Assembly: GCA_016873635.1 (NCBI GenBank) | Contig: VGWJ01000003.1 | Location: 1-64,000, forward strand | Length of the DNA: 64,000 nucleotides | Direction: 5' to 3' | Origin: Lentisphaerota bacterium | Lineage (GTDB): Bacteria; Verrucomicrobiota; Kiritimatiellia; UBA8416; VGWJ01 | Shown here: positions 41,409-53,111 of the stretch, one piece after another | Layout of the letters: every line of letters begins with the position of its first letter | Numbering within the stretch: position 1 is the first letter of the stretch | Program-made: the position numbers and the translations under genes | The notes under the pieces: generated by a model | What the model saw: only the letters and a program-made list of their open reading frames with translations | Told to the model about the DNA's origin: nothing | The model's database searches: none

Positions 41409-43163
41409 TTATCGCGCCACCTGCGCCGGAATCCACCCGCGCACCGAGTTCACCAGGAAGAGCCGGTCCGTCGGCCTGAGATCCTCTTTCCGCACTATGC
41501 CCTCGCGCACCTCCCCCCGGCTGAGAAGCCATTCGCGGAATACGCCGGGCAGCAGGCCGCACCCCACCGGCGGCGTTATGCGCCGGCCGTCCTTCTCCAC
41601 GACCACGTTGGCGATCGTGCTTTCGGTGATTTCCCCGGCCGAGTTCCACAGCAGCACGTCGTCCGCGTCGGCGGCGGACGCGCGCGCCCGCTCGTACACG
41701 GCGCGGAAAGTGGTCTTGTGGTAGAGCAAGCGGTCGGCCCGATCCACGGGCGCGGGGGCCAGCGCCACCTTCCACGGCGCGCGCATCTCACCCGCGGGCA
41801 GGGGCGTTGCTTCCACGGCGACGCCGCCGTCCGCCGCCAGGCGCAGGCGCACGCGGCAGCGCGCCGCTCCCGACGCGCGCCCCTGCCGTTCAAGCGTCCC
41901 TCGCAGGCGCGCCTCGTCGCACGCAAAGCCGAAATAGGCGGCCGACCGCGCCAGGCGCCTGAGATGCAGGTCGAGCAGAAAGTATCCCGCGGACCCGTCC
42001 CACAGCATCGTTTCCAGCAGCTCGAACTCGGGCGTTTGTTCCGTGAGCACGGCGCTTTTGACGCGGCACTCGTCGTACTCGGCGCCGGCTTCCGAATCCC
42101 ACACGATCCCGCCGCCGACCCCGTATTCGGCGCGCCCGGCGGCGCGGTCGACCACGGCGGTGCGGATAGCCACGCTGAACTCCGCGCGGCCGCCGGGGGC
42201 CACGCAGCCGATCGCCCCCGTGTACACGCCGCGCGGGGCGGTCTCGAGCTCGCGGATGATCCGCATCGTGCGCACCTTGGGCGCGCCGGTGACTGAAGCG
42301 CACGGGAACAGGGCCCGCATCACCTCGCTGAAAGGCCGCGTCGTGCGGGCCGCCACGGTGGAGGTCATCTGCCACACCGTGGGATGCCGCTCCACCGTGA
42401 ACAGCGCCGGGACGCGCACGCTGCCGGGCGCGGCCACTTTCCCGATATCGTTGCGGATCATGTCCACGATCATCACGTTTTCCGCGCGGTTCTTGGCCGA
42501 GTCGCGCAGCGCGGCCGCGGCGGCATCGTCTTCGTCGCAGGTCCGGCCCCGCGGGGCCGTGCCTTTCATGGGCCGCGAGACCACCGTTTCGCCGTCCAGC
42601 GCGAAGAACAGCTCGGGCGAAGCCGAGCACACGACAAAGCGCCCGGTGTCCAGGAACGCGGCGTAGCCGGGCGGCCGCGCCGCGGCCCAGCGCCGGAAGA
42701 GCTCCCGCGGGTCGCCGCGGCAGGCGGCGCGCAGGCGGAACGAGTAGTTCACCTGGTACGTGTCGCCGGCGTACAGGTAGCGCTTGATGCGTTCGATCGC
42801 CGCGGCGTAGTCCTCCCTCGGCATCGAGGGCTCCCAGGCCGGCGTTTCGAACGGCGCGCCGGCGCGCATGGCGGGAAGAGGGCCCGCGGACGGTGCCTCG
42901 AACAGGCCGAACCACAGCAGAGGCATTTCCGACGCCGCGTGCGTGCGGAAGGCGGGGTCCATGCCGGGCGCGGCCTCGTAGGCCACGTAGCCGGCCGCGT
43001 AAAGCCCGCCGGCCGCGGCCCGTTCCACGCGCCGCAGGGCGGGCAACACGTCCGCCGCATCGCGCGCGGCAATCACTTCAGCCGGCGCGCGGAAGCAGCG
43101 CCATCCCGCGCCGGGCCCTTCGGGCCACAGGTAAACGCATATGTCTCCGGCGTGGTGCGTCAT
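41409..43163 (-). CDS. pabBC: Aminodeoxychorismate synthase component I fused to aminodeoxychorismate lyase
   Basis: A 584-residue fusion of two p-aminobenzoate enzymes. The N-terminal ~375 residues are PabB/chorismate-binding (RYLYAGDTYQVNYSF, VVSRPMKGTAPRG, NVMIVDMIRNDIGKVA, GAPKVRTMRIIRELE, YDECRVKSAVLT). The C-terminal ~200 residues are a class IV PLP aminotransferase fold, 4-amino-4-deoxychorismate lyase (PabC): ELLETMLW, LLYHKTTFRAVY, ITESTIANVV. The fold's PLP lysine is HKT. The fusion of PabB and PabC is known in bacteria. No pabA (glutaminase) lies nearby, so ammonia must come from another subunit. It follows the CDP-alcohol transferase gene by five bases. Confidence 0.94.
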   Translation of the reverse strand: MTHHAGDICVYLWPEGPGAGWRCFRAPAEVIAARDAADVLPALRRVERAAAGGLYAAGYVAYEAAPGMDPAFRTHAASEMPLLWFGLFEAPSAGPLPAMRAGAPFETPAWEPSMPREDYAAAIERIKRYLYAGDTYQVNYSFRLRAACRGDPRELFRRWAAARPPGYAAFLDTGRFVVCSASPELFFALDGETVVSRPMKGTAPRGRTCDEDDAAAAALRDSAKNRAENVMIVDMIRNDIGKVAAPGSVRVPALFTVERHPTVWQMTSTVAARTTRPFSEVMRALFPCASVTGAPKVRTMRIIRELETAPRGVYTGAIGCVAPGGRAEFSVAIRTAVVDRAAGRAEYGVGGGIVWDSEAGAEYDECRVKSAVLTEQTPEFELLETMLWDGSAGYFLLDLHLRRLARSAAYFGFACDEARLRGTLERQGRASGAARCRVRLRLAADGGVAVEATPLPAGEMRAPWKVALAPAPVDRADRLLYHKTTFRAVYERARASAADADDVLLWNSAGEITESTIANVVVEKDGRRITPPVGCGLLPGVFREWLLSRGEVREGIVRKEDLRPTDRLFLVNSVRGWIPAQVAR

Positions 43164-43168
43164 CGGCT

Positions 43169-43783
43169 TCAGGAAACGCCGTGCGAGCCCGGCGGCGTGC
43201 CCGCGTCCGATTCAAGCTCCCGCCGGATGCGGAGGGCGTGTTTGACGGAGGGCACGTCGGCGCGCCATTTGCGGAGGATGAGCGTGATGGCGATCTCCTC
43301 GATCCCGGCCGCGATCATCACGGGCACGGCCAGACGGAAGGGCCAGGCCGCGCCCGTGGCCACGAGCAGCAGCACCCCGGCGCCCATCAGCACCGCCGAG
43401 ACCTTCGCGGCCCACGTGTGAAAGCTCGTCAGGCGCCCGAAGCGGAGCACGCCGATCAGCACGGGGGTCACGTAGCCCACAACCGCGACGCCCACGAAGA
43501 AGGCTTCGCGCCGGATCAGTTCGGGCCACAGGCGCCAGGCGCACGCGGCCAGGCCGGCGTACATGGCGAAGTCGGCGATGCTGTCCAGCCGGGCGCCGGC
43601 GCTGGTGACCATGTGGAGCTTGCGGGCCAGGAAGCCGTCGACGCAGTCGGTGGCCAGCGCCGCGCAGAAGAGGAAAAGAAAAGCCTGGGCCCGGCCCGTG
43701 TATCCCAGGTAAAGCAGCGCCGGCACGGCGGCCAGCCGCAGGCCGCTGAGCGCGTTGGGAATATTCAGCGCGGCGCGCGTCAT
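43169..43783 (-). CDS. CDP-alcohol phosphatidyltransferase
   Basis: A 204-residue integral membrane enzyme that attaches an alcohol head group (glycerol phosphate, serine or similar) to CDP-diacylglycerol. The catalytic signature is complete: DCVDGFLARKLHMVTSAG then ARLDSIAD, fitting D-x2-DG-x2-AR-x8-G-x3-D-x3-D. About five hydrophobic helices follow. The start overlaps the exosortase-TPR stop (ATGA), so it is translationally coupled to that gene. PgsA and PssA subgroups cannot be separated by eye. Confidence 0.9.
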   Translation of the reverse strand: MTRAALNIPNALSGLRLAAVPALLYLGYTGRAQAFLFLFCAALATDCVDGFLARKLHMVTSAGARLDSIADFAMYAGLAACAWRLWPELIRREAFFVGVAVVGYVTPVLIGVLRFGRLTSFHTWAAKVSAVLMGAGVLLLVATGAAWPFRLAVPVMIAAGIEEIAITLILRKWRADVPSVKHALRIRRELESDAGTPPGSHGVS

Positions 43784-46700
43784 GGCGAGGATCTGGCGCG
43801 CTCTTTCATCAGCAGCTTGAGGCGCGAATGCATGTCCCGGGCGCGCGCCTCCACCGCGTCGGAACGGCGCGCGTTGCGCCGCACGGCGTCCACGATCTCC
43901 TGCGCCTTCCCGTAATTGCCCCGGCTCATTTCCAGCTCAGCCGCGTTGAGCCTGACTTCCAGGTCGCCGTAGGCGCCCTCCTCGAGCACGGCCAGCGCCT
44001 TCTCCATATACTCGCGCGCCAGATCCAGGTCCCCGCTCTTCATGTACACCACCGCCGCCGTGTCCAGCGCGGCGTAGGACCGGTTGTCCAGCGCCAGCAG
44101 CGCCGGCAGCATTTCACGCGCCCTGGGCAGCCCGCCGGGCACGCCGGCCAGCGTGTAGACGAGGTTGTTCAGCACGTTGGTGCTGGCGGGGTAGAGCGCG
44201 CGGGCCGTTTCCAGGATCTCCACGGCGCGTTCCGAATGCCCCTGCACCCGCGCGGCCTCGGCGGCGAGCAGAAGCGACGAAGGGCGCATGCCGCGCGCGT
44301 CCAGCTCGAAAGCCTCGTCCAGCACGGTCATCGCCCGGGCCAGGTCGCGCCGGCCGAAGTACGCGAATCCCAGGCGTTCCGCCCATTGGGTCGATTCCGG
44401 GAAGCGCTCTTTGAGGAACTCCAGCGCGGCGATGAGGTCCACGTCCTTCGCGCCTTCGCGCGCCTTTATCCGCACGATCAGCTCGTAGAACACCGTGGGA
44501 TCGCGCGCGTTCTCCGCCGCTTCGAGCGCGGACTTCATGGTCCACGAAACGTCGCCCAGCCGCAGCGCGCAATTCGCCGCCAGCGCCAGCGCCGGCAGGC
44601 AGCCGCGGCCGCGGGCCACGGCGTCGCGCGCCGCCACGGCGGCCGCTTCCGGAAGGTTGTTGCGGAGCAGGAACTGCCCGGCCCGCACCATCGTTCCCGG
44701 CGGATAGGTCTTCGCCGCGGCGGCCGACTGCATTTCGGCCAGGACCCAGGGACCCGGCCCTTCGTCGCGCAGGCGCGCGACCAGCGCGGCCAGCCAGATT
44801 TCGGCGTCGGCGGGGCAGGCCTCCCGCGCGCGCGCCACCGTTTCCCCGTCGCCCTCGCTGAGAGCCACGAGCGTGCGGTGCAGCACGGCCGAGCGCGGCA
44901 GCCGCCGCACCGCCTCGCGGGCGGAGACCAGCGCGCGCTCATGGTCTTTTTGCGTCGCGAGCAGGGCCGTGAGCCGGTGCAGCGCCGCGGCGCTTTCCAG
45001 GTCGTTCCGGCCCACGGCGGCCCAGCGCGCCGGATCGGAGGTCGCGCCCGCGCCGCCCGCGGCATACCACTTCGCCAGCAGCTCGTACAGGCCGCGCACG
45101 AACGGGCTGGTCGACCTCACGGCCTCCGCGGCGTGACGCGCGGCTTCGTCCGCCATCTGCTTCTCCGTGGGCGGCGTCGGCCAGAGGCGCATCACGCTCA
45201 TTTCCGCCGGCGGCGCGCTCAGCACGTCCTTCTCGCGTCCCTCGCGGTCGAGCTTGGCGCCCAGCGCGCGCGCCATGTCTTCGCCCGCCCTGGCGCGCCC
45301 GGTGTCGAGAAGCATCTGCGCCATGCCGGGGGTCACCCCGCCCACGCCTTCGCGGCCCAGGATGAAGAGGGCCTCCTCGCGGAAGCCGAAACCGGCCAGA
45401 ATGGCGGCCTCCGCGATTTCCAGCTGCGCCGCGCCGGGGAAGATCTCGCGCGAGCGCGCCAGCACGTCCAGCGCGCCGACCGCCAGGTTGACGTTCATCA
45501 TGGCGTTGACCAGCATGAGGCGCGAATTGAGGGTGGGAATGGGCGTGATCTCGTCGTAGGCCCGCAGCGCTTCGTAGGATTCCTGCCAGGCGCGCACCTG
45601 GTCGTAGAACACCGCGTGCTGCAGCATGATGGCGTCGTCCCGGTCCGGGTAGCGCGTCAGCAGCTCGTCGAGCTGCGCGTGCGCCTCGGCGAAGCGTCCG
45701 GCCATGCCCAGCGCCACGGGATAGCTCATCTCCATGGTGGGCGTCAGCGCGCCTTCGCGGTCGCGGCGCTCCAGTTCGGCGATGGCCTCGTCGAGATAGC
45801 GCCGCCGGACCGCGGTCGGGTCCCCTTCGCCCAGTTCGTCCGCCAGCGGCACCCGCGACCAGAAGGGCTGCATGGCCGCGACGCCGCGGGTGACGCGGTA
45901 GAGCGGCCGCAGGTCGAGCAGCTCGAACGCGTTGCGGGCCTCGAGACCGAGCTGCCGCCGCCGGAAGGCGAACCACACGCCGCCGTACCGGACGGCCGCC
46001 AGGGCCAGCGCCGGATCGCGGGAATCCAGCTCGCGCAGGCGCGCGAACACCCGCCAGCCCAGGTCCGGGCGGCGCAGCTCGAAGCAGTACGAGAGGTAGG
46101 TCGCCAGGCGGGCGGCGTCGAGCGCGGGCAGGTTCTTTTCCAGCGACTCCGCGAACGCGCGCTCCCAGTTGCCGCCCGGCGCGCCGGAGGCCAGCGCGAA
46201 AAGCGCGGTCAGGAAGCGCGGCTCGTCCGGCCAGTCTTCGAGGCCCTGCTGCAGGATGCGAGCGGCGGCCGACGTTTCGCGCAGGCGCAGGTGCGCGTGG
46301 ACGGCGATGAGGGCCGAAGCGAATTGCCGGTGGCGAACGTGGCTGTCGCAGCCCGCGATGGCCAGCCACTGCTCCCGGGCCGCGAGGTACGGGAAGAGGG
46401 CGCGCACCCGGTCGATCACCATATGCGACCGCGCCGCGAGCACGACGTTGCGCGCCGCTTCATCCGCGCGGTCGCGTTTGGCCGCGTATTCGGCCCTGAC
46501 GATCGCGACGCCCGGATTGCGCTGGACGTTCGCCGGGAGGGCGTCCACCAGCGCCGCGGCCTCTTCGGCGCGGCCGGTGGCCATCAGCACCCAGCTCTTC
46601 AGAATGGTCTCCTCCATGCTCAGGCTTGCGGGCGGCAGACGGTCGAACTGATCGAGGGCCTCGGCGTAGCGCTGCCGCGCCACGTAGAGCCGCGCGCGCT

Positions 46701-47790
46701 TGCCCTGCAGGTCGCGGCTGCCGGGCCTGAGCTCGAGCGCGGCGGCCAGCGCCCGCTCCGCGGCGTCGGGGGACCGGATCATCAGCGCGTCCACCACGCC
46801 GCCGATCATCGCCGCGCGGTGCGCGGGACGGGCCTTGCGGATGCCGATGAACGTCGCGCCGGCCAGGATCACGACCAGGGCCGCCGCCCACGACCACCGC
46901 AGCCCGAGGCGCCAGATTCGCGGCAGCCGGCTGGCGCGATCCGGACGCTCCAGATGCCCGCTGGCGCGGCCTTCCCTGAGCATCTTCCGCCGGGCCCGGA
47001 ACGCGCGCCACCACGTGGCCTCGCCCTGCACCGCGAACAGGCACACCAGCAGGAAGACGCCCAGCGTGTCGTGCAGCACCGTCGCGCTCCACTCCGGCGG
47101 CATGCGGGACGACCACAGCGCCAGCGACACCACTCTCGCGATGTTCAGAAGGAGCACCTGGGCCAGACCCAGCGCGACGAAAGCGAGCGTCTCGAACCAC
47201 CGGAACCGGTAGAGCAGGCACACGCCCAGCGTACAGAGCCCCACCGTGACGCCCGTGCGCATGCCGCTGCACGCCTCCGGCACGCCGAACGTCGCGTGGC
47301 TGAGGTGGATCGTCAGCCCGTCGGCCCAGCACCGCACGTTCAACGCCTGCAGGACGAATTCCGACGCTTCGACGGACATCACCTGCATGGCCATCTGCAG
47401 CTTTCCGAACACCTGGCCGGGCAGCGGATGGATCCAGTAGAGCAGGAACAGCGCGATCAGGATGTCCCTGCCGTACCGGTCCGGCAGGGACCAGCGCAGG
47501 CAGGCGTAAAACAGCAGGACCATCCCGAGCCATTCGAACTGGTGCACGTTGAAAACGATGCCCAGCACGGCCAGCAGGGCGCCGGCGACGGCGACGGCCG
47601 GGATCAGAACGGAAGGCGGGCGGGCGCCGGATCCCGCGGGCTTGGGGCGCAGCAGGATCAGCGTGGCGAAGAGCGTCCCCAGGACAAAGCGGATCAACCC
47701 TTCTTCGATGCCGGTAAGCCGGCCGAAGTTGGCGGCCGCCCAGGCTCCGAACAGCACAAGGGCCGCGGCCAGCACTGCCTTGCGCAGCAT
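43780..47790 (-). CDS. Exosortase-family protease fused to a very long TPR region
   Basis: Exosortases are membrane cysteine proteases that cut C-terminal sorting signals such as PEP-CTERM. The first ~260 residues form an eight-helix exosortase domain with the catalytic triad in place: Cys in VPEACSGMRTG (residue ~174), Arg in LLNIARVVSL (~219) and His in LHDTLGVFLL (~240). A further helix near residue 305-320 leads into ~1000 residues of TPR-like helices (e.g. AERALAAALELRPGSRDL, RYAEALDQFDRLP, AEEAAALVDALP). The ATG at 47790 has GGGGAG six bases upstream, unlike the ATG at 47796 that abuts it. The family is usually ~180-300 residues, so this is a large fusion. The TPR side could face either compartment. 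Confidence 0.82.
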   Translation of the reverse strand: MLRKAVLAAALVLFGAWAAANFGRLTGIEEGLIRFVLGTLFATLILLRPKPAGSGARPPSVLIPAVAVAGALLAVLGIVFNVHQFEWLGMVLLFYACLRWSLPDRYGRDILIALFLLYWIHPLPGQVFGKLQMAMQVMSVEASEFVLQALNVRCWADGLTIHLSHATFGVPEACSGMRTGVTVGLCTLGVCLLYRFRWFETLAFVALGLAQVLLLNIARVVSLALWSSRMPPEWSATVLHDTLGVFLLVCLFAVQGEATWWRAFRARRKMLREGRASGHLERPDRASRLPRIWRLGLRWSWAAALVVILAGATFIGIRKARPAHRAAMIGGVVDALMIRSPDAAERALAAALELRPGSRDLQGKRARLYVARQRYAEALDQFDRLPPASLSMEETILKSWVLMATGRAEEAAALVDALPANVQRNPGVAIVRAEYAAKRDRADEAARNVVLAARSHMVIDRVRALFPYLAAREQWLAIAGCDSHVRHRQFASALIAVHAHLRLRETSAAARILQQGLEDWPDEPRFLTALFALASGAPGGNWERAFAESLEKNLPALDAARLATYLSYCFELRRPDLGWRVFARLRELDSRDPALALAAVRYGGVWFAFRRRQLGLEARNAFELLDLRPLYRVTRGVAAMQPFWSRVPLADELGEGDPTAVRRRYLDEAIAELERRDREGALTPTMEMSYPVALGMAGRFAEAHAQLDELLTRYPDRDDAIMLQHAVFYDQVRAWQESYEALRAYDEITPIPTLNSRLMLVNAMMNVNLAVGALDVLARSREIFPGAAQLEIAEAAILAGFGFREEALFILGREGVGGVTPGMAQMLLDTGRARAGEDMARALGAKLDREGREKDVLSAPPAEMSVMRLWPTPPTEKQMADEAARHAAEAVRSTSPFVRGLYELLAKWYAAGGAGATSDPARWAAVGRNDLESAAALHRLTALLATQKDHERALVSAREAVRRLPRSAVLHRTLVALSEGDGETVARAREACPADAEIWLAALVARLRDEGPGPWVLAEMQSAAAAKTYPPGTMVRAGQFLLRNNLPEAAAVAARDAVARGRGCLPALALAANCALRLGDVSWTMKSALEAAENARDPTVFYELIVRIKAREGAKDVDLIAALEFLKERFPESTQWAERLGFAYFGRRDLARAMTVLDEAFELDARGMRPSSLLLAAEAARVQGHSERAVEILETARALYPASTNVLNNLVYTLAGVPGGLPRAREMLPALLALDNRSYAALDTAAVVYMKSGDLDLAREYMEKALAVLEEGAYGDLEVRLNAAELEMSRGNYGKAQEIVDAVRRNARRSDAVEARARDMHSRLKLLMKERARSSP

Positions 47791-47839
47791 CGTCATCTCC
47801 CCACCCGCGGGTTCAGCACGGCGGCTCCCCTTCGGCCGC

Positions 47840-49381
47840 TCAGAATTCGTGCGCGTAGACGAGGCGCACGCCGTATATCTCGCGCTCGAAGGCCAGCTTC
47901 CGCTCCTCGCTGGTGCGCCGGATATACTGTGCGTAGGCCTCCAGGTCCAATTCGCGCGTCAGCGCCACCAGCAGCGATGCGCTGCTGGCCCACGTAATGT
48001 AGTCGCTGCGCCACTCGGCGTCAATCTCCGGGTCAGGCGCCAGGTCCGCCGCCAGCTCGCGGGGCGCCGCGCCTTCAGGCGTGGCGCGGGTATCGCGCGC
48101 GTCCGGCAACGGCGCGTTCCAGCGCACGCTGTAGACCGTATCGCCCCGCAGCCGCACGTAGGGCGTGATCGGGACTTCCGCGCGCAGGCCGCTGTCCCAG
48201 TCCCGGTAGCCGAGCCACTCGTCGCGCGCCGGATCCACGATGCGCCACTGCGTAAACGCGCCGGCCTTGACCCATTCGCCGCCGAAATCGACCTGGTAGC
48301 GGTAGAGATCGACCGTCGCCAGCGGGTAGTTGAAGTCGGTCACAAGCGACCGGGAAAAGCTCAGCGAATGGGAAAGCTTGCGCGTCAACTGCGTCTTCAA
48401 GCCGGCGAGACCGACGAGCGTGGCGACGTCCGTGCGGCCGGTGTCGCCGGCATGGTAGCTGTGTCCCTGCGAATAGCCGACGCCGACGAAAAGCACGGTC
48501 GAGCGCGTGAGCGGGATGGCGGTGCCCCGCCCGAGGTCCACCCGCAGCAGGTATTCCTCCGTGTCCACGCGCGGGCGGTTGGTGGCCGCGTAGTCGGTCT
48601 GCGAGAAACTGGCCCAGGCGCCTACCGTCGCGCCGGGGACCAGTTCCCACTCGTAGCCCGCGCTTTCGTCGTACGTCACGCGCTCCTGGTCGCTGAATTC
48701 GTCGCTGAACGGAATGAGGTCCGTCCGGCTGCCCCGCAGGGAAACGTCCTGCCGTTCGGACAGCAGCCAGTCGAGATCCGCTCCGAGCCGGTTCTGAAAA
48801 TGCTCGTAGCGCGCGCCGCCGTACGGATCCTCGAGCCCGCGCGTGTCGATGAAGTCGGTGCGATACGCCGCGTCGTCGTAAAGCCGCCCCTTGATGAACG
48901 GCGTCAGCGCGAACTCCGAGGAGATGCTGGCGAACACGCCTTCCTCGGCCAGGTCCACGCGAAACTCGTCCTCCTGCGTCTTGAGAGGGTAATGCTCGTA
49001 GGTCACCCGCACCGACACGTCCAGGTCCGTGGTCGGCGTAACGATCAGGTAATTGCGGAAGATCAGCGACCCGACAATGGGGAAATCGTGCCCGTCCGTC
49101 TGGATGCGGCCGCGCCGGTTCTCGTGGAGAAAGTCCGTGCCCGTGCCGCGGCTTTCGGTGTAGCGCCATCCGGCCTCGATGTACAGCAGGACCGTCGAAT
49201 AGAACGGGCCCAGGCGCAGAGTCACGTAGTCCGGCGGGGCGATGTCGCGGTGGTTGTGGAACCGGAGGCCCTGCGCCACGGCGGCGGCGGGCAGCAGCAG
49301 CAACAGCAGCAGCGTGCCGGACGCGCGGCGCGCGAAGCGCGAAGCGGCCGGCGGCCGACGGTTTTCGGTCCTCGGTTGCAT
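47840..49381 (-). CDS. Predicted outer-membrane beta-barrel protein
   Basis: A 513-residue protein with a signal peptide (TLLLLLLLPAAAVAQG), followed by a long run of alternating-hydrophobic strands (for example LIFRNYLIVTPTTDLDVSV, YLLRVDLGRGTAIPL, TVLFVGVGYSQGHSY). It ends in an aromatic Phe (LVYAHEF), the usual outer-membrane insertion signal. Its position just upstream of the exosortase-TPR gene and downstream of a GT-C protein is like barrels that accompany PEP-CTERM/EPS clusters. It begins with ATG 49381 and was not recognised at family level. Exopolysaccharide export or surface-protein anchoring is speculative. Confidence 0.75.
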   Translation of the reverse strand: MQPRTENRRPPAASRFARRASGTLLLLLLLPAAAVAQGLRFHNHRDIAPPDYVTLRLGPFYSTVLLYIEAGWRYTESRGTGTDFLHENRRGRIQTDGHDFPIVGSLIFRNYLIVTPTTDLDVSVRVTYEHYPLKTQEDEFRVDLAEEGVFASISSEFALTPFIKGRLYDDAAYRTDFIDTRGLEDPYGGARYEHFQNRLGADLDWLLSERQDVSLRGSRTDLIPFSDEFSDQERVTYDESAGYEWELVPGATVGAWASFSQTDYAATNRPRVDTEEYLLRVDLGRGTAIPLTRSTVLFVGVGYSQGHSYHAGDTGRTDVATLVGLAGLKTQLTRKLSHSLSFSRSLVTDFNYPLATVDLYRYQVDFGGEWVKAGAFTQWRIVDPARDEWLGYRDWDSGLRAEVPITPYVRLRGDTVYSVRWNAPLPDARDTRATPEGAAPRELAADLAPDPEIDAEWRSDYITWASSASLLVALTRELDLEAYAQYIRRTSEERKLAFEREIYGVRLVYAHEF

Positions 49382-49449
49382 CCGTGTAACGGCGGACTTC
49401 AGCCTCAGCCTAGCATCGGAACGGCGCACCTCAAGCCGAAATCCGCGCT

Positions 49450-51066
49450 TCAAGACCGCGGAAGCATGATGCGCAGCCCGGTGCCGCCCTGTCCGAATCC
49501 GCCCATGCGCTCGACCTCCCTGAAACGGCGCTCCACTTCGTCCCACAGGGCGCGCCTCTCCCCGTCCGGCAGCGGCGTGACCGACGGGCACTCCACCGCG
49601 AAAGCCCACTCGCTGAAGGCCGCCGCGCGCGCCGGCGTTTCGCGCAGCAGCTCGAACATCATGGCGCGGTTCAGCACATGCAGCCGCGCGGCCCGTTCCC
49701 GGCTCCAGCCCGGGAAGTAGCTGAACGGCCCCATCTCCATGCCGGGCGGCAGGTCCAGGCCGGACTCCACGGCCAGGTACGGATCCTGCGTCAGCAGCAG
49801 ATCGCCCGGCGCGGTCAGCTCGCGCACCTTCGCCGCCGCCTTCCGCAGGTTGCGCAGGGGCGTTTCCGCCTTCAGCGGCCACCAGACGAGGTCGCGCCCG
49901 CGCACGAACCACGCCTGGTTGATGGGCGACGAGAAGGCGGAGACGAGGCACAGCAGCAGGACGGCCAGGGCGAGCGGGCGGGCGCCTGCGCGCGCCGGTT
50001 CGCGGACGGAGGCGAAGAGGCGGAACAGGGCAACGGCGACGCCCGCCGCGAAGAGCGGGAAGACGATGGTCTGATAATCGTCGTAGGGGAACGGCGCGGC
50101 GAAGTGCGCGACGGTCATGGCCAGCGCGCCGAGCCACACCGCGGCCGTCGCCGTGCGGTCGGCGCCCGGCGCGGCCCCCCGCGCCGCCCCGCGGCCGGGG
50201 CGGAACATGAGCGCGGCCAGCCCCAGCCCGCCGGCCACGAGGTAGGCCTGCGCCACGCGCGAGAGGAAGCCCGCCTTGCAGGCCAGGAGGTACAGCGGCC
50301 CGCCGGGCGCGCGCGACGCGTGGTAGCCGAACAGCCCGAACCACAGCCCCCGCGGGGCCGACAGCGCGAACGGCCCGAACGCCGCGGCCGCGGCCGCGGC
50401 CCCGCCCAGCCCGAACCACAGCGCGGGGAAGCGCGGCGCGGGCGACGGGTCGCGGCGCCCGAACGCCAGCAGCGCCAGCGCCACGGGCGCGCACAGCGCC
50501 GCCGAGGTGCGCGCGCCCGCCGCCAGGGCCAGCAGCACGCCCGACCCGAAGCACGCCGCGGCGCCGTGGCGCGCGCGACGCAGCGTGAGCAGGACGAACC
50601 CCCCCGCCAACAGCAGGGCCGTGAGCGCGTAGGTCTTGACGATCGCCGTGAAGTAGCTCTGGTAAACGTTCACGCCGCAGAGGCAGAACGCGGCCAGGGC
50701 CGCGAACCGCCGCGAACCGCCGCCGTCGGCCCCGCCCGACAGCCGCGCCGCCAGCCAGGCCGCGCACAGCGCCGCGGCAAAGCCCAGCGCGGCGCTGAAC
50801 AGCCGGCCGCCGGCCACGCCCATGGCGTCGACCAGCGGGTAGGCGGCCGCGTACACGAACGGCATCACCGGCCCCTGCGGCACGGCGAAATCCGCGTAGG
50901 GCATGCGGCCGCGCGCGACCTGCCGGGCCGCGTAGAGATACCAGCCTTCGTCCTGGTTCAGATCGCCCAGCAGCAGGTTGCAGGCGTAGAGAATGCCGGT
51001 CGCGGCCAGCGCCGCCAGCCACAGCGCCGCAAGCTTTCCGTCGCGCGGTGTTCGCCTTTTGTCCAC
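49450..51066 (-). CDS. GT-C fold glycosyltransferase-like membrane protein
   Basis: A 538-residue multi-pass protein. The first loop after helix one holds DLNQDEGWYLYAARQVARG, an acidic motif like the catalytic loop of polyprenyl-phosphate-dependent GT-C enzymes (PMT/ArnT). Then come about ten hydrophobic helices and a soluble C-terminal ~130-residue domain. It is in the run pyrE-GT-C-barrel-exosortase, where a protein-glycosylation role would fit, but no acceptor is identified. The long Ala/Gly/Leu helices make precise topology uncertain. Confidence 0.72.
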   Translation of the reverse strand: MDKRRTPRDGKLAALWLAALAATGILYACNLLLGDLNQDEGWYLYAARQVARGRMPYADFAVPQGPVMPFVYAAAYPLVDAMGVAGGRLFSAALGFAAALCAAWLAARLSGGADGGGSRRFAALAAFCLCGVNVYQSYFTAIVKTYALTALLLAGGFVLLTLRRARHGAAACFGSGVLLALAAGARTSAALCAPVALALLAFGRRDPSPAPRFPALWFGLGGAAAAAAAFGPFALSAPRGLWFGLFGYHASRAPGGPLYLLACKAGFLSRVAQAYLVAGGLGLAALMFRPGRGAARGAAPGADRTATAAVWLGALAMTVAHFAAPFPYDDYQTIVFPLFAAGVAVALFRLFASVREPARAGARPLALAVLLLCLVSAFSSPINQAWFVRGRDLVWWPLKAETPLRNLRKAAAKVRELTAPGDLLLTQDPYLAVESGLDLPPGMEMGPFSYFPGWSRERAARLHVLNRAMMFELLRETPARAAAFSEWAFAVECPSVTPLPDGERRALWDEVERRFREVERMGGFGQGGTGLRIMLPRS

Positions 51067-51087
51067 GCCGCGGCCTTCCCCGCCTGC

Positions 51088-51660
51088 CTACGAACCGGGA
51101 TGCACCGGCTTGTCGCCCCCGGCGCAAAGGGGGCACGCCTCCGGCTGCCAGGTGACCGGCGTCATCTCCAGCAGGCTGAATGTCGGATACCGGAACCGCG
51201 CCGCGCCGCCGCTGCGGTCCACCAGCACGGCTATGGCCGCCACCCTGCCGCCCCCCGCCTCGACGATGTCCACGGTTTCCTGCACGCGGCCGCCGCGCGT
51301 GATCACGTCCTCGGCCACGACGTAGCTCCGCCCGGCGTCGATCCGGAAACGGCGCAGCGCCAGCCGGCCGTCCTGCTTCTCGGCAAAGATGCAGGGCGCG
51401 TCCAGGGCGCGCGCCAGCTCGTGCCCCACGATGATGCCGCCCAGCGCCGGCGCGATCACCGCGTCCACGGCCGCGTCCGGCAGGGCCGCGCGCAGCCTGG
51501 CGGCCAGCGCCGCGCACAGGTCGCCCGCCACGCGCGGATAGCGCAGCGCGTTGGCGCACTGGAAATAGCGGTCGCTGTGCAGACCCGAGCGCAGCTCGAA
51601 ATGCCCGTTGAGCAGCGCGCCGGTCTGCTCAAGCCGGCGAAGCACCTCGTTCGAAGTCAT
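51088..51660 (-). CDS. pyrE: Orotate phosphoribosyltransferase
   Basis: Transfers ribose phosphate from PRPP to orotate to give OMP. The 190-residue protein has LLNGHFELRSGLHSDRYFQ, IAPALGGIIVGHELA and the PRPP motif VVAEDVITRGGRVQETVD (VEDVITTGG type). The C-terminal Cys-x2-Cys (CPLCAGG) is unusual. It starts the long minus-strand run leading to the exosortase gene. Confidence 0.93.
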   Translation of the reverse strand: MTSNEVLRRLEQTGALLNGHFELRSGLHSDRYFQCANALRYPRVAGDLCAALAARLRAALPDAAVDAVIAPALGGIIVGHELARALDAPCIFAEKQDGRLALRRFRIDAGRSYVVAEDVITRGGRVQETVDIVEAGGGRVAAIAVLVDRSGGAARFRYPTFSLLEMTPVTWQPEACPLCAGGDKPVHPGS

Positions 51661-51836
51661 GGCGTCGGCTCCCGTCGTCGCGCCCCGCGCGCGATGCGGT
51701 AGACGCTAGCAGAGGCGGCGGAAGCTTGTACAGCGAATACCGCGGCCGGGCAATTGCGGGTTCCCGGTGTCGGACGTCGGGCGCCGGCCTCCGTTTCCGG
51801 TAGCCGTCCGCGCCCTTTCTCTCCTATCATCCGCGC

Positions 51837-53111
51837 ATGAGCTTTGCCGTGCCCGACGTCCTGCGCAGGGAGGCGGTATGCCTGGGCGCGCTGAACGCGC
51901 CTTCCGGCCGCGCCGCCCTGACGGATCGCGAAATCCGCGACCGGCTTGAGGCGCCCGTCTGGCCGGGCGGAAGCGGGCCCGCCGTTTTCGAAGTCGTCCG
52001 CCCCGGCGAAAAGGTGTGCTTCGTGATTTCCGACCACACGCGCCGGACGGCCGCCGATCGCGTTCTGCCCGTGCTGCTCTCGGGGCTGGCGGAGCGCGGC
52101 TGCGACGCGCGCGACATGCACCTGCTGGTGGCGACGGGCATTCATCGGCCCCCCGCCCCGGAGGAGCTCGGGCGCATCCTGGGCCCGGCCGTCTACGGCG
52201 AATTCCGCGCGCGCCTGCACGCGCACGATCCCGACGCCGCCGACCTGGTCGAGGTCGGCGCGCTGGCCGACGGGCACCGCGTGCGCGTCAACCGCCGCGC
52301 CCTGGAAGCGGATCGCCTTGTGCCGCTGGGCGCGGCCGGCTTCCACTACCACGCCGGTTTCGGCGGCGGACGCAAGTCGCTCGTGCCGGGCCTGGCCGCG
52401 CGGGCAACCATCGCCCACAACCACAGCCTGGCGCTGGACCCGCGCGAAGACCGCTTGCGCGCCGGCGTCGAGACCGGCCGGCTGGACGGCAACCCCGTGG
52501 CGGAGGAGATGCTGCGGGCGGCGCGGATGTGCGATCCCGACATCATCGTAAACACGGTGCTCTCTCCGTCCGGCGAGCTGGCCGGCGTGTTTTCCGGAGA
52601 GCTCGACGCGGCGCACCGCGCGGCCTGCGCGGCGGTGCGCGAGATGCTGGGCTTCGGCCTGGAGGAGCCGGCCGACATTGTGCTGGCCGACGCCGGGTCC
52701 GCCGGAGACTGGATCCAGAGCCACAAGGCGCTGGTCAATGCGTCGCGGGCGCTGCGTCCCGGCGGGCGCGTGATCCTGCGCGCGCCGTGCCCGGAAGGCC
52801 TGGGCAACGAACGGTTCCGCCATTATCTGCGGATGGAATCGACCGCGCGGATGTGCGCCGCGCTGCGCGCGCAGCCGGAGGTCAACGGCCAGACCGCGCT
52901 CTCGACGCGCGAACGCGGACGTTGCGCCGTCCTGGTCACGGACCTGGGCCCGGAGGATCGGCGGGACCTCGGGATCGCGACCGCGCCGGACCTGGAGTCC
53001 GCGGCGGCGCGCGCGATAAGCGATCTGCGCGCCGGCGGGGTGCGCCGCCCCACTTACCTGATCATGCCTCAGGCGCTGTACACCGTCCCCTTCCCGCGCG
53101 GCGCGGCGTGA
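51837..53111 (+). CDS. LarA-family nickel-dependent racemase-like protein
   Basis: A 424-residue protein of the lactate racemase (LarA/DUF2088) family, which interconverts 2-hydroxyacid stereoisomers using a tethered nickel-pincer nucleotide. It has SDHTRRT, LVATGIHRPP and AGFHYHAGFGGGRKSLVPG, the last including the histidines and Lys that in LarA hold the cofactor. larB, larC and larE, needed for the cofactor, are not in the window. It may have a different hydroxyacid substrate, since the LarA family is broad. It is divergent from pyrE. Confidence 0.86.
   Translation: MSFAVPDVLRREAVCLGALNAPSGRAALTDREIRDRLEAPVWPGGSGPAVFEVVRPGEKVCFVISDHTRRTAADRVLPVLLSGLAERGCDARDMHLLVATGIHRPPAPEELGRILGPAVYGEFRARLHAHDPDAADLVEVGALADGHRVRVNRRALEADRLVPLGAAGFHYHAGFGGGRKSLVPGLAARATIAHNHSLALDPREDRLRAGVETGRLDGNPVAEEMLRAARMCDPDIIVNTVLSPSGELAGVFSGELDAAHRAACAAVREMLGFGLEEPADIVLADAGSAGDWIQSHKALVNASRALRPGGRVILRAPCPEGLGNERFRHYLRMESTARMCAALRAQPEVNGQTALSTRERGRCAVLVTDLGPEDRRDLGIATAPDLESAAARAISDLRAGGVRRPTYLIMPQALYTVPFPRGAA

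Follow-up and report, generated by a model that had tools for sequence, protein, structure and literature searches.

An exosortase catalytic domain and a long TPR superhelix are encoded by a single gene in the window, the 64,000-nucleotide stretch of Lentisphaerota DNA analysed here. We regard its product (paralog A) as a member of a new exosortase subfamily, in which one enzyme would serve one substrate with the help of a built-in, PrsT-like periplasmic TPR adaptor, and which would have arisen by a single fusion followed by duplication; the probability of this reading was estimated at roughly 0.75. With less assurance, the evidence leans towards an undescribed subfamily whose paralogs are each locked to one substrate family by the in-chain TPR and a diverged signal ('PEP-TFR' for A), with co-inactivation revealing the pairing and some members persisting as dead scaffolds. 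The earlier note on this DNA had proposed the fusion and its novelty, both of which were borne out, but it had missed a second fused paralog (B, on contig 53) and the substrates that belong to each paralog.

The frame of A was uninterrupted from ATG to TGA, and no stop or frameshift separated the two parts (Table 1). The start at 47790 used previously is the second in-frame ATG (MTM...), the first ATG of the frame being at 47796. A large open reading frame over the same region on the plus strand (43828-47997) represents a high-GC mirror frame, and the homologs sit on the minus frame. The N-terminal part scored 86.9 bits against Pfam Exosortase_EpsH (cutoff 25.7) and 41.5 bits against the NCBIfam exosortase/archaeosortase signature TIGR04178 (cutoff 23), and was thus assigned to exosortases, not to an unrelated membrane family. 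The Cys, Arg and His residues predicted from the sequence alone were located as C176, R221 and H242, and the full triad was retained in 48 of the 51 aligned fused proteins; the Cys was also absent from two further B-type copies beyond these 51. TPR_19, TPR_14 and TPR_2 matched the remainder of the chain above their Pfam cutoffs, in agreement with the long in-frame TPR array noted before. AlphaFold models of A, resting on 32 homologs, displayed eight exosortase TM helices, the domain starting at residue ~3, then a ninth one and an extended helical superhelix (pLDDT 88 for residues 1-620 and 91 for residues 322-1338). Over the homologs, the loop between TM8 and TM9 contained a mean of 8.3 Lys+Arg, and TM9 had a mean hydropathy of 1.67. 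Because the ninth helix follows a basic cytoplasmic loop, the TPR part was placed in the periplasm on the same side as the active site, and the positive-inside pattern likewise predicts a periplasmic position for all three catalytic residues. A conserved basic RPxHR motif right behind TM9 is odd for a periplasmic flank. Sequence and fold searches of the PDB returned TPR proteins and no exosortase structure among the matches listed; the fold matches were generic TPR superhelices (O-GlcNAc transferase, SKI complex, IFT-A, Ctr9 and LbcA).

Table 1 Features of the A-type fusion gene and its neighbours in the window
Feature	Position	Strand	Basis or remark
Fused exosortase-TPR protein, paralog A	43780..47796	-	1338 aa; one open frame and same-architecture homologs in every same-order genome searched
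Exosortase/EpsH catalytic domain, residues 42-262	47011..47673	-	PF09721, E 1.8e-24; model pLDDT 88; topology
Catalytic Cys176, in VPEACSGMR	47269..47271	-	Cys in 49/51 aligned fused proteins
Catalytic Arg221, in NIARV	47134..47136	-	Alignment of fused proteins; Cys instead only in G011 A
Catalytic His242, in LHDTL	47071..47073	-	Alignment of fused proteins
Ninth TM helix, residues 298-320	46837..46905	-	Model and topology; preceded by basic cytoplasmic loop
TPR superhelix, residues 322-1326	43819..46833	-	Pfam TPR models; nearly all-helical model, pLDDT 91
CDP-alcohol phosphatidyltransferase	43169..43783	-	ATG overlaps the stop of the fusion (ATGA); outside the conserved A-type locus
Outer-membrane beta-barrel-like protein, 513 aa	47840..49381	-	Signal peptide, C-terminal Phe; PF13505 E 0.0064, below cutoff
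GT-C-like polytopic protein	49450..51066	-	In 10/30 A-type loci
Orotate phosphoribosyltransferase-like gene (pyrE)	51088..51660	-	Head of conserved gene run in 9/30 loci

None of the named NCBIfam exosortase families recognised A above its cutoff, the classical exosortase model TIGR02602 reaching 58.3 of the required 105.55 bits and the XrtA model TIGR03109 55.7 of 208 bits. The founding paper mentions exosortase fusions only to EpsI and CAAX-protease domains (PMC1569441). No description of an exosortase-TPR fusion was found in the open literature searched, in NCBIfam or in Pfam, and the longest exosortase model among the NCBIfam matches of A spans 522 positions, which agrees with the claim that this architecture is undescribed. 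With XrtA/EpsH, A shares the 8-TM domain, the Cys/Arg/His triad, PEP-CTERM substrates and an exopolysaccharide locus, but differs in the fused ninth helix and TPR, in having few substrates instead of tens, in that no EpsI partner was found, and in forming its own clade. EpsI-fused exosortases (XrtD and others) also carry a C-terminal extension, an EpsI domain of ~200 aa as opposed to ~1000 aa of TPR in A. Dedicated archaeosortases and exosortases with one target gene next door are known as well; A and B resemble them in the one-enzyme, one-target relation, whereas these enzymes are short and unfused, and the A/B pair is fused, duplicated and diverged in its signals.

A protein search over 57 related genomes recovered fused homologs from every one of the 30 other same-order genomes searched, mostly at full length and as fragments in a few. 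The full-length homologs, of about 1340-1470 aa, were each encoded by one uninterrupted frame. Outside the order, the fusion was found in a minority of the class families (f19, f29, f34, f42 and f43), and 13 of 289 genomes in a phylum sample carried it, all from the same class; the named relatives with the fusion are Kiritimatiellae, 'Lentisphaerae' or 'PVC group' MAGs. The fused homologs shared 30-50% identity over their whole length across dozens of genomes, so that the fusion is neither a chance product nor an assembly chimera. Two paralogs, A and B, are usual per genome, with a third copy in a few. In a FastTree phylogeny of the exosortase domain, the fused proteins came out as a single clade with support 1.0, and all standalone exosortases of the same genomes fell outside it; the simplest reading would be one fusion event with duplication afterwards.

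The same genomes also contain a standalone exosortase gene with a separate gene for a PrsT-like TPR protein immediately behind it, and the gene order PrsK-PrsR-exosortase-PrsT occurred in three relatives; these names were given by resemblance in size and order together with a TIGR02917 match. On contig 5 of the genome under study (49058-52011; loci L178 and L008), a PrsK-like kinase, a standalone exosortase and a PrsT-like TPR protein are encoded in a row, as an unfused counterpart. A derivation of the fusion from a neighbouring exosortase-PrsT operon was unsupported, the exosortases of the operon grouping with the standalone ones in the tree. Self-matches aside, the fused TPR profile nevertheless matched most strongly, among the proteins compared, the PrsT proteins of PrsK/PrsR/exosortase/PrsT operons, although this likeness is weak (67.8 bits at best) and TPRs resemble one another anyway. 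A itself falls outside PrsT as defined by TIGR02917 score and lipoprotein signal, with 54.7 against 312.2 bits and a TM helix without a lipobox ahead of the TPR. PrsT was tied to PEP-CTERM through phylogenetic profiling (PMC1569441), and it is required for floc formation in a system where a PEP-CTERM gene lies immediately upstream (PMC9850573). PrsT and the C-terminal part of A, predicted to be periplasmic too, are both large TPR arrays linked to PEP-CTERM, PrsT as a separate lipoprotein and the TPR of A in one membrane-anchored chain with the enzyme. As a Rosetta-stone argument, the fusion suggests a physical partnership between PrsT-type TPRs and the exosortase, and substrate recruitment is a plausible candidate role for the fused TPR. 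PMC8764530 and PMC11021448 describe a comparable arrangement in Pseudomonas aeruginosa, where the periplasmic protease CtpA needs the TPR lipoprotein spiral LbcA; that protease is unrelated, the two are separate chains, and the structural match of A to LbcA is a generic TPR match.

The B gene lies tail-to-tail with a gene for a secreted protein of ~240 residues ending in PEP-CTERM. Counting only loci with enough sequence, this neighbour was present at 18 of 21 B loci with an intact triad and at none of four with a broken one (Fisher p 0.003, kinship uncorrected). The three intact-triad copies without a linked substrate (in the genome under study, G010 and G029) are accompanied by the same substrate family elsewhere in the genome, here at positions 3190-3843 of contig 73, where the encoded protein scored 20.9 bits on the PEP-CTERM model TIGR02595 (threshold 16). 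The B substrate has a classical VPEP tail with a basic end, and was detected in 21 of the 35 genomes with the fusion and in none of the 22 without it, the genomes not being independent. Third paralogs in G023 and G028 each had an adjacent PEP-CTERM neighbour of their own. At L061 (14927-23922) and L246 (404-1462), paralogs without a tail (~340-450 aa, C-terminal ..PYFYKV/YRI) and large secreted proteins are encoded ahead of the substrate genes, and they may be secreted together with the PEP-CTERM protein as its partners.

A second, weaker family surfaced with the B-substrate profile; when aligned, its members have an invariant PEP and a nearly fixed xFR in common. They are secreted proteins of ~250 residues with the signal PEPxTYaxLxFALxSLGxTFRxxL, mostly followed by a further extension, and their tails differ from those of the B substrates within and after the hydrophobic stretch. 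The candidate A substrate of the genome under study, related to its B substrate, is encoded at 20166-20942 of contig 12. As with B, the distribution followed the fusion: the family turned up in 24 of 35 genomes with it, by a strong match in 23 and by a fragment carrying the tail in G007, and in none of the 22 lacking it (genomes not independent). No intact A substrate was detected in nine genomes with A, which include the decayed G011 and are mostly incomplete MAGs, and in G001 and G014 an A-like substrate was present while A was undetected. The absence of a PEP-CTERM gene from the window, stated in the earlier note, was confirmed. Among A-type genes, only that of G024 (L044) had one nearby, the adjoining A substrate, although enzyme and substrate share a contig in several other genomes. 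The genome-wide scan for sorting signals that the note had suggested identified PEP-CTERM or variant proteins outside the window on contigs 11, 12 and 73, those on contigs 11 and 12 scoring 29.2 and 20.9 bits on TIGR02595; E-values for such short signals are weak. Since many A-type substrates were found only by the dedicated profile, the general model under-reports substrates in this lineage. By that same model, class relatives without the fusion (G031-G055) encode 0-106 PEP-CTERM proteins, most of them at least 4, and order members with it 0-4. On contig 11 (L168, 560-1291 and 6195-9530, reverse complement), and also at L169-L175, a few kilobases separate a PEP-CTERM protein from a protein of ~1060 aa that is polytopic at its N-terminus and ends in a TPR part, conserved across the order and in some class members.

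Loss of catalytic residues provided a natural view of the pairing. In G020, B carries Cys-to-Tyr and His-to-Tyr changes and the B substrate next to it stops short of any membrane tail, none being found in the three forward frames examined, while A and its substrate are intact. The reverse was observed in G011, where A carries an Arg-to-Cys change and the A-substrate homolog stops just ahead of the PEP-CTERM segment, again absent from three forward frames, with B and its substrate intact. No B substrate was found in G024 and G030, whose B proteins lack both Cys and His. In G056, where the Cys of B is replaced by Ser, the A-type substrate family was the only one found. Although the cases are few and come from unfinished MAGs, enzyme and substrate appear to decay together, paralog by paralog; as the losses match paralog to substrate, the active site can be argued to act on that signal. 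The B frames of G030 (L161, 1344-5180) and G024 (L162, 2234-6013) have stayed open over 1260-1279 aa despite the loss of Cys and His, so the scaffold may have a catalysis-free job and these two proteins are possibly non-catalytic scaffolds.

The A-type locus has a different setting from that of B. The barrel gene lies 43 nt upstream of A in the window and was the immediate upstream neighbour in 23 of 28 testable A-type loci. On the downstream side, an export gene of Wza type came next in 16 of 24, followed by a Wzc-like tyrosine kinase, a sugar-phosphate transferase and sometimes Wzy. In about a third of the loci, pyrE and the GT-C-like gene precede. The latter had no match in Pfam or NCBIfam, and Wza/Wzc were not found beside A in the stretches of its own genome that were read. 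The A-type locus is an outer-membrane-barrel/exopolysaccharide setting, the general setting of XrtA systems. The co-directional run of barrel and GT-C-like genes described earlier was verified; as for its interpretation as a sorting and glycosylation module, the linkage to the barrel held, but glycosylation fits less well than exopolysaccharide synthesis, given the limited recurrence of the GT-C-like gene and the wider context. At the end of the locus, a ~300-aa membrane-anchored protein (cluster 7; L029, 20474-21412, and homologs) carries the motif VRLVHGYNMxDCMRIKxY and had no family match; its identification as EpsI was dismissed by profile comparison (hhalign probability 0.1). EpsI (DUF3485) itself was not found next to a fused exosortase, the matches listed being to standalone-exosortase loci only. 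A PabB-PabC-type fusion of a chorismate-binding enzyme with a class IV aminotransferase is encoded at 41409-43163 of the window.

The constancy of the barrel gives some weight to the alternative that the fused proteins are exosortases whose TPR docks to the barrel or the exopolysaccharide exporter, substrate choice being made in the membrane domain, which could read the tail differences in and after the hydrophobic stretch. We consider this tentative, at somewhat below even odds, since B retains its entire TPR without a conserved barrel neighbour, and since pairing of TPR proteins with PEP-CTERM genes is also seen where the genes are separate (PrsT; PMC1569441, PMC9850573). It is unlikely that A is instead an exopolysaccharide assembly factor, with the EpsH-like domain handling polymer and the periplasmic TPR bridging Wzc/Wza and the barrel as in alginate/PNAG-type export. 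The position of A between barrel and Wza, Wzc and sugar-phosphate transferase genes in many genomes, its usually unlinked substrate, and the first proposal of EpsH as a flippase or polymerase (PMC1569441) would suit such a factor; however, nearly all copies keep the triad, B adjoins a PEP-CTERM gene and no exopolysaccharide genes, active-site loss goes with loss of the matching sorting signal, and no Wza/Wzc gene was seen beside A in its own genome. Similarly improbable is a division of labour in which ordinary standalone exosortases process both substrates and the fused copies play an accessory part as chaperones or regulators. Most genomes do hold standalone exosortases potentially able to process the same tails, and the open B frames of G024 and G030 would be explained, but the signal was lost from the substrate of the inactivated fused partner while the other pair in the same genome stayed intact, and G008 (93% complete) has both substrate families with only fused exosortases found. 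That two genes were joined by an error of assembly or frame, conceivable for MAG data with a high-GC mirror frame, was ruled out for practical purposes by the same full-length architecture in dozens of independent assemblies.

Under the favoured reading of a one-enzyme, one-substrate subfamily, an 8-TM cysteine transpeptidase/protease domain with a periplasmic active site would be joined through its ninth helix to the ~1000-residue TPR superhelix, which would act as a built-in adaptor, the in cis counterpart of the presumed PrsT role in XrtA systems. A would serve the contig 12 protein with the PEP-TFR signal and B the related VPEP-tail protein of contig 73. After Sec export, the C-terminal helix would keep the substrate anchored in the inner membrane; the TPR would bind the folded domain of the substrate and present the PEP site, where Cys176 would cut, passing the protein on to an acceptor in the envelope. 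The product might then exit with the exopolysaccharide/outer-membrane machinery whose genes lie at A-type loci.

Exosortases, membrane enzymes with a presumed role in trimming and sorting surface proteins, usually have many substrates, so that the residues of enzyme, signal and helper that decide specificity are hard to approach. Paired A and B enzymes, with signals differing in few positions and natural loss mutants, would make exosortase specificity directly testable, and the fused proteins would offer a compact system for exosortase catalysis, the binding partner of the TPR and the reading of the C-terminal signal.
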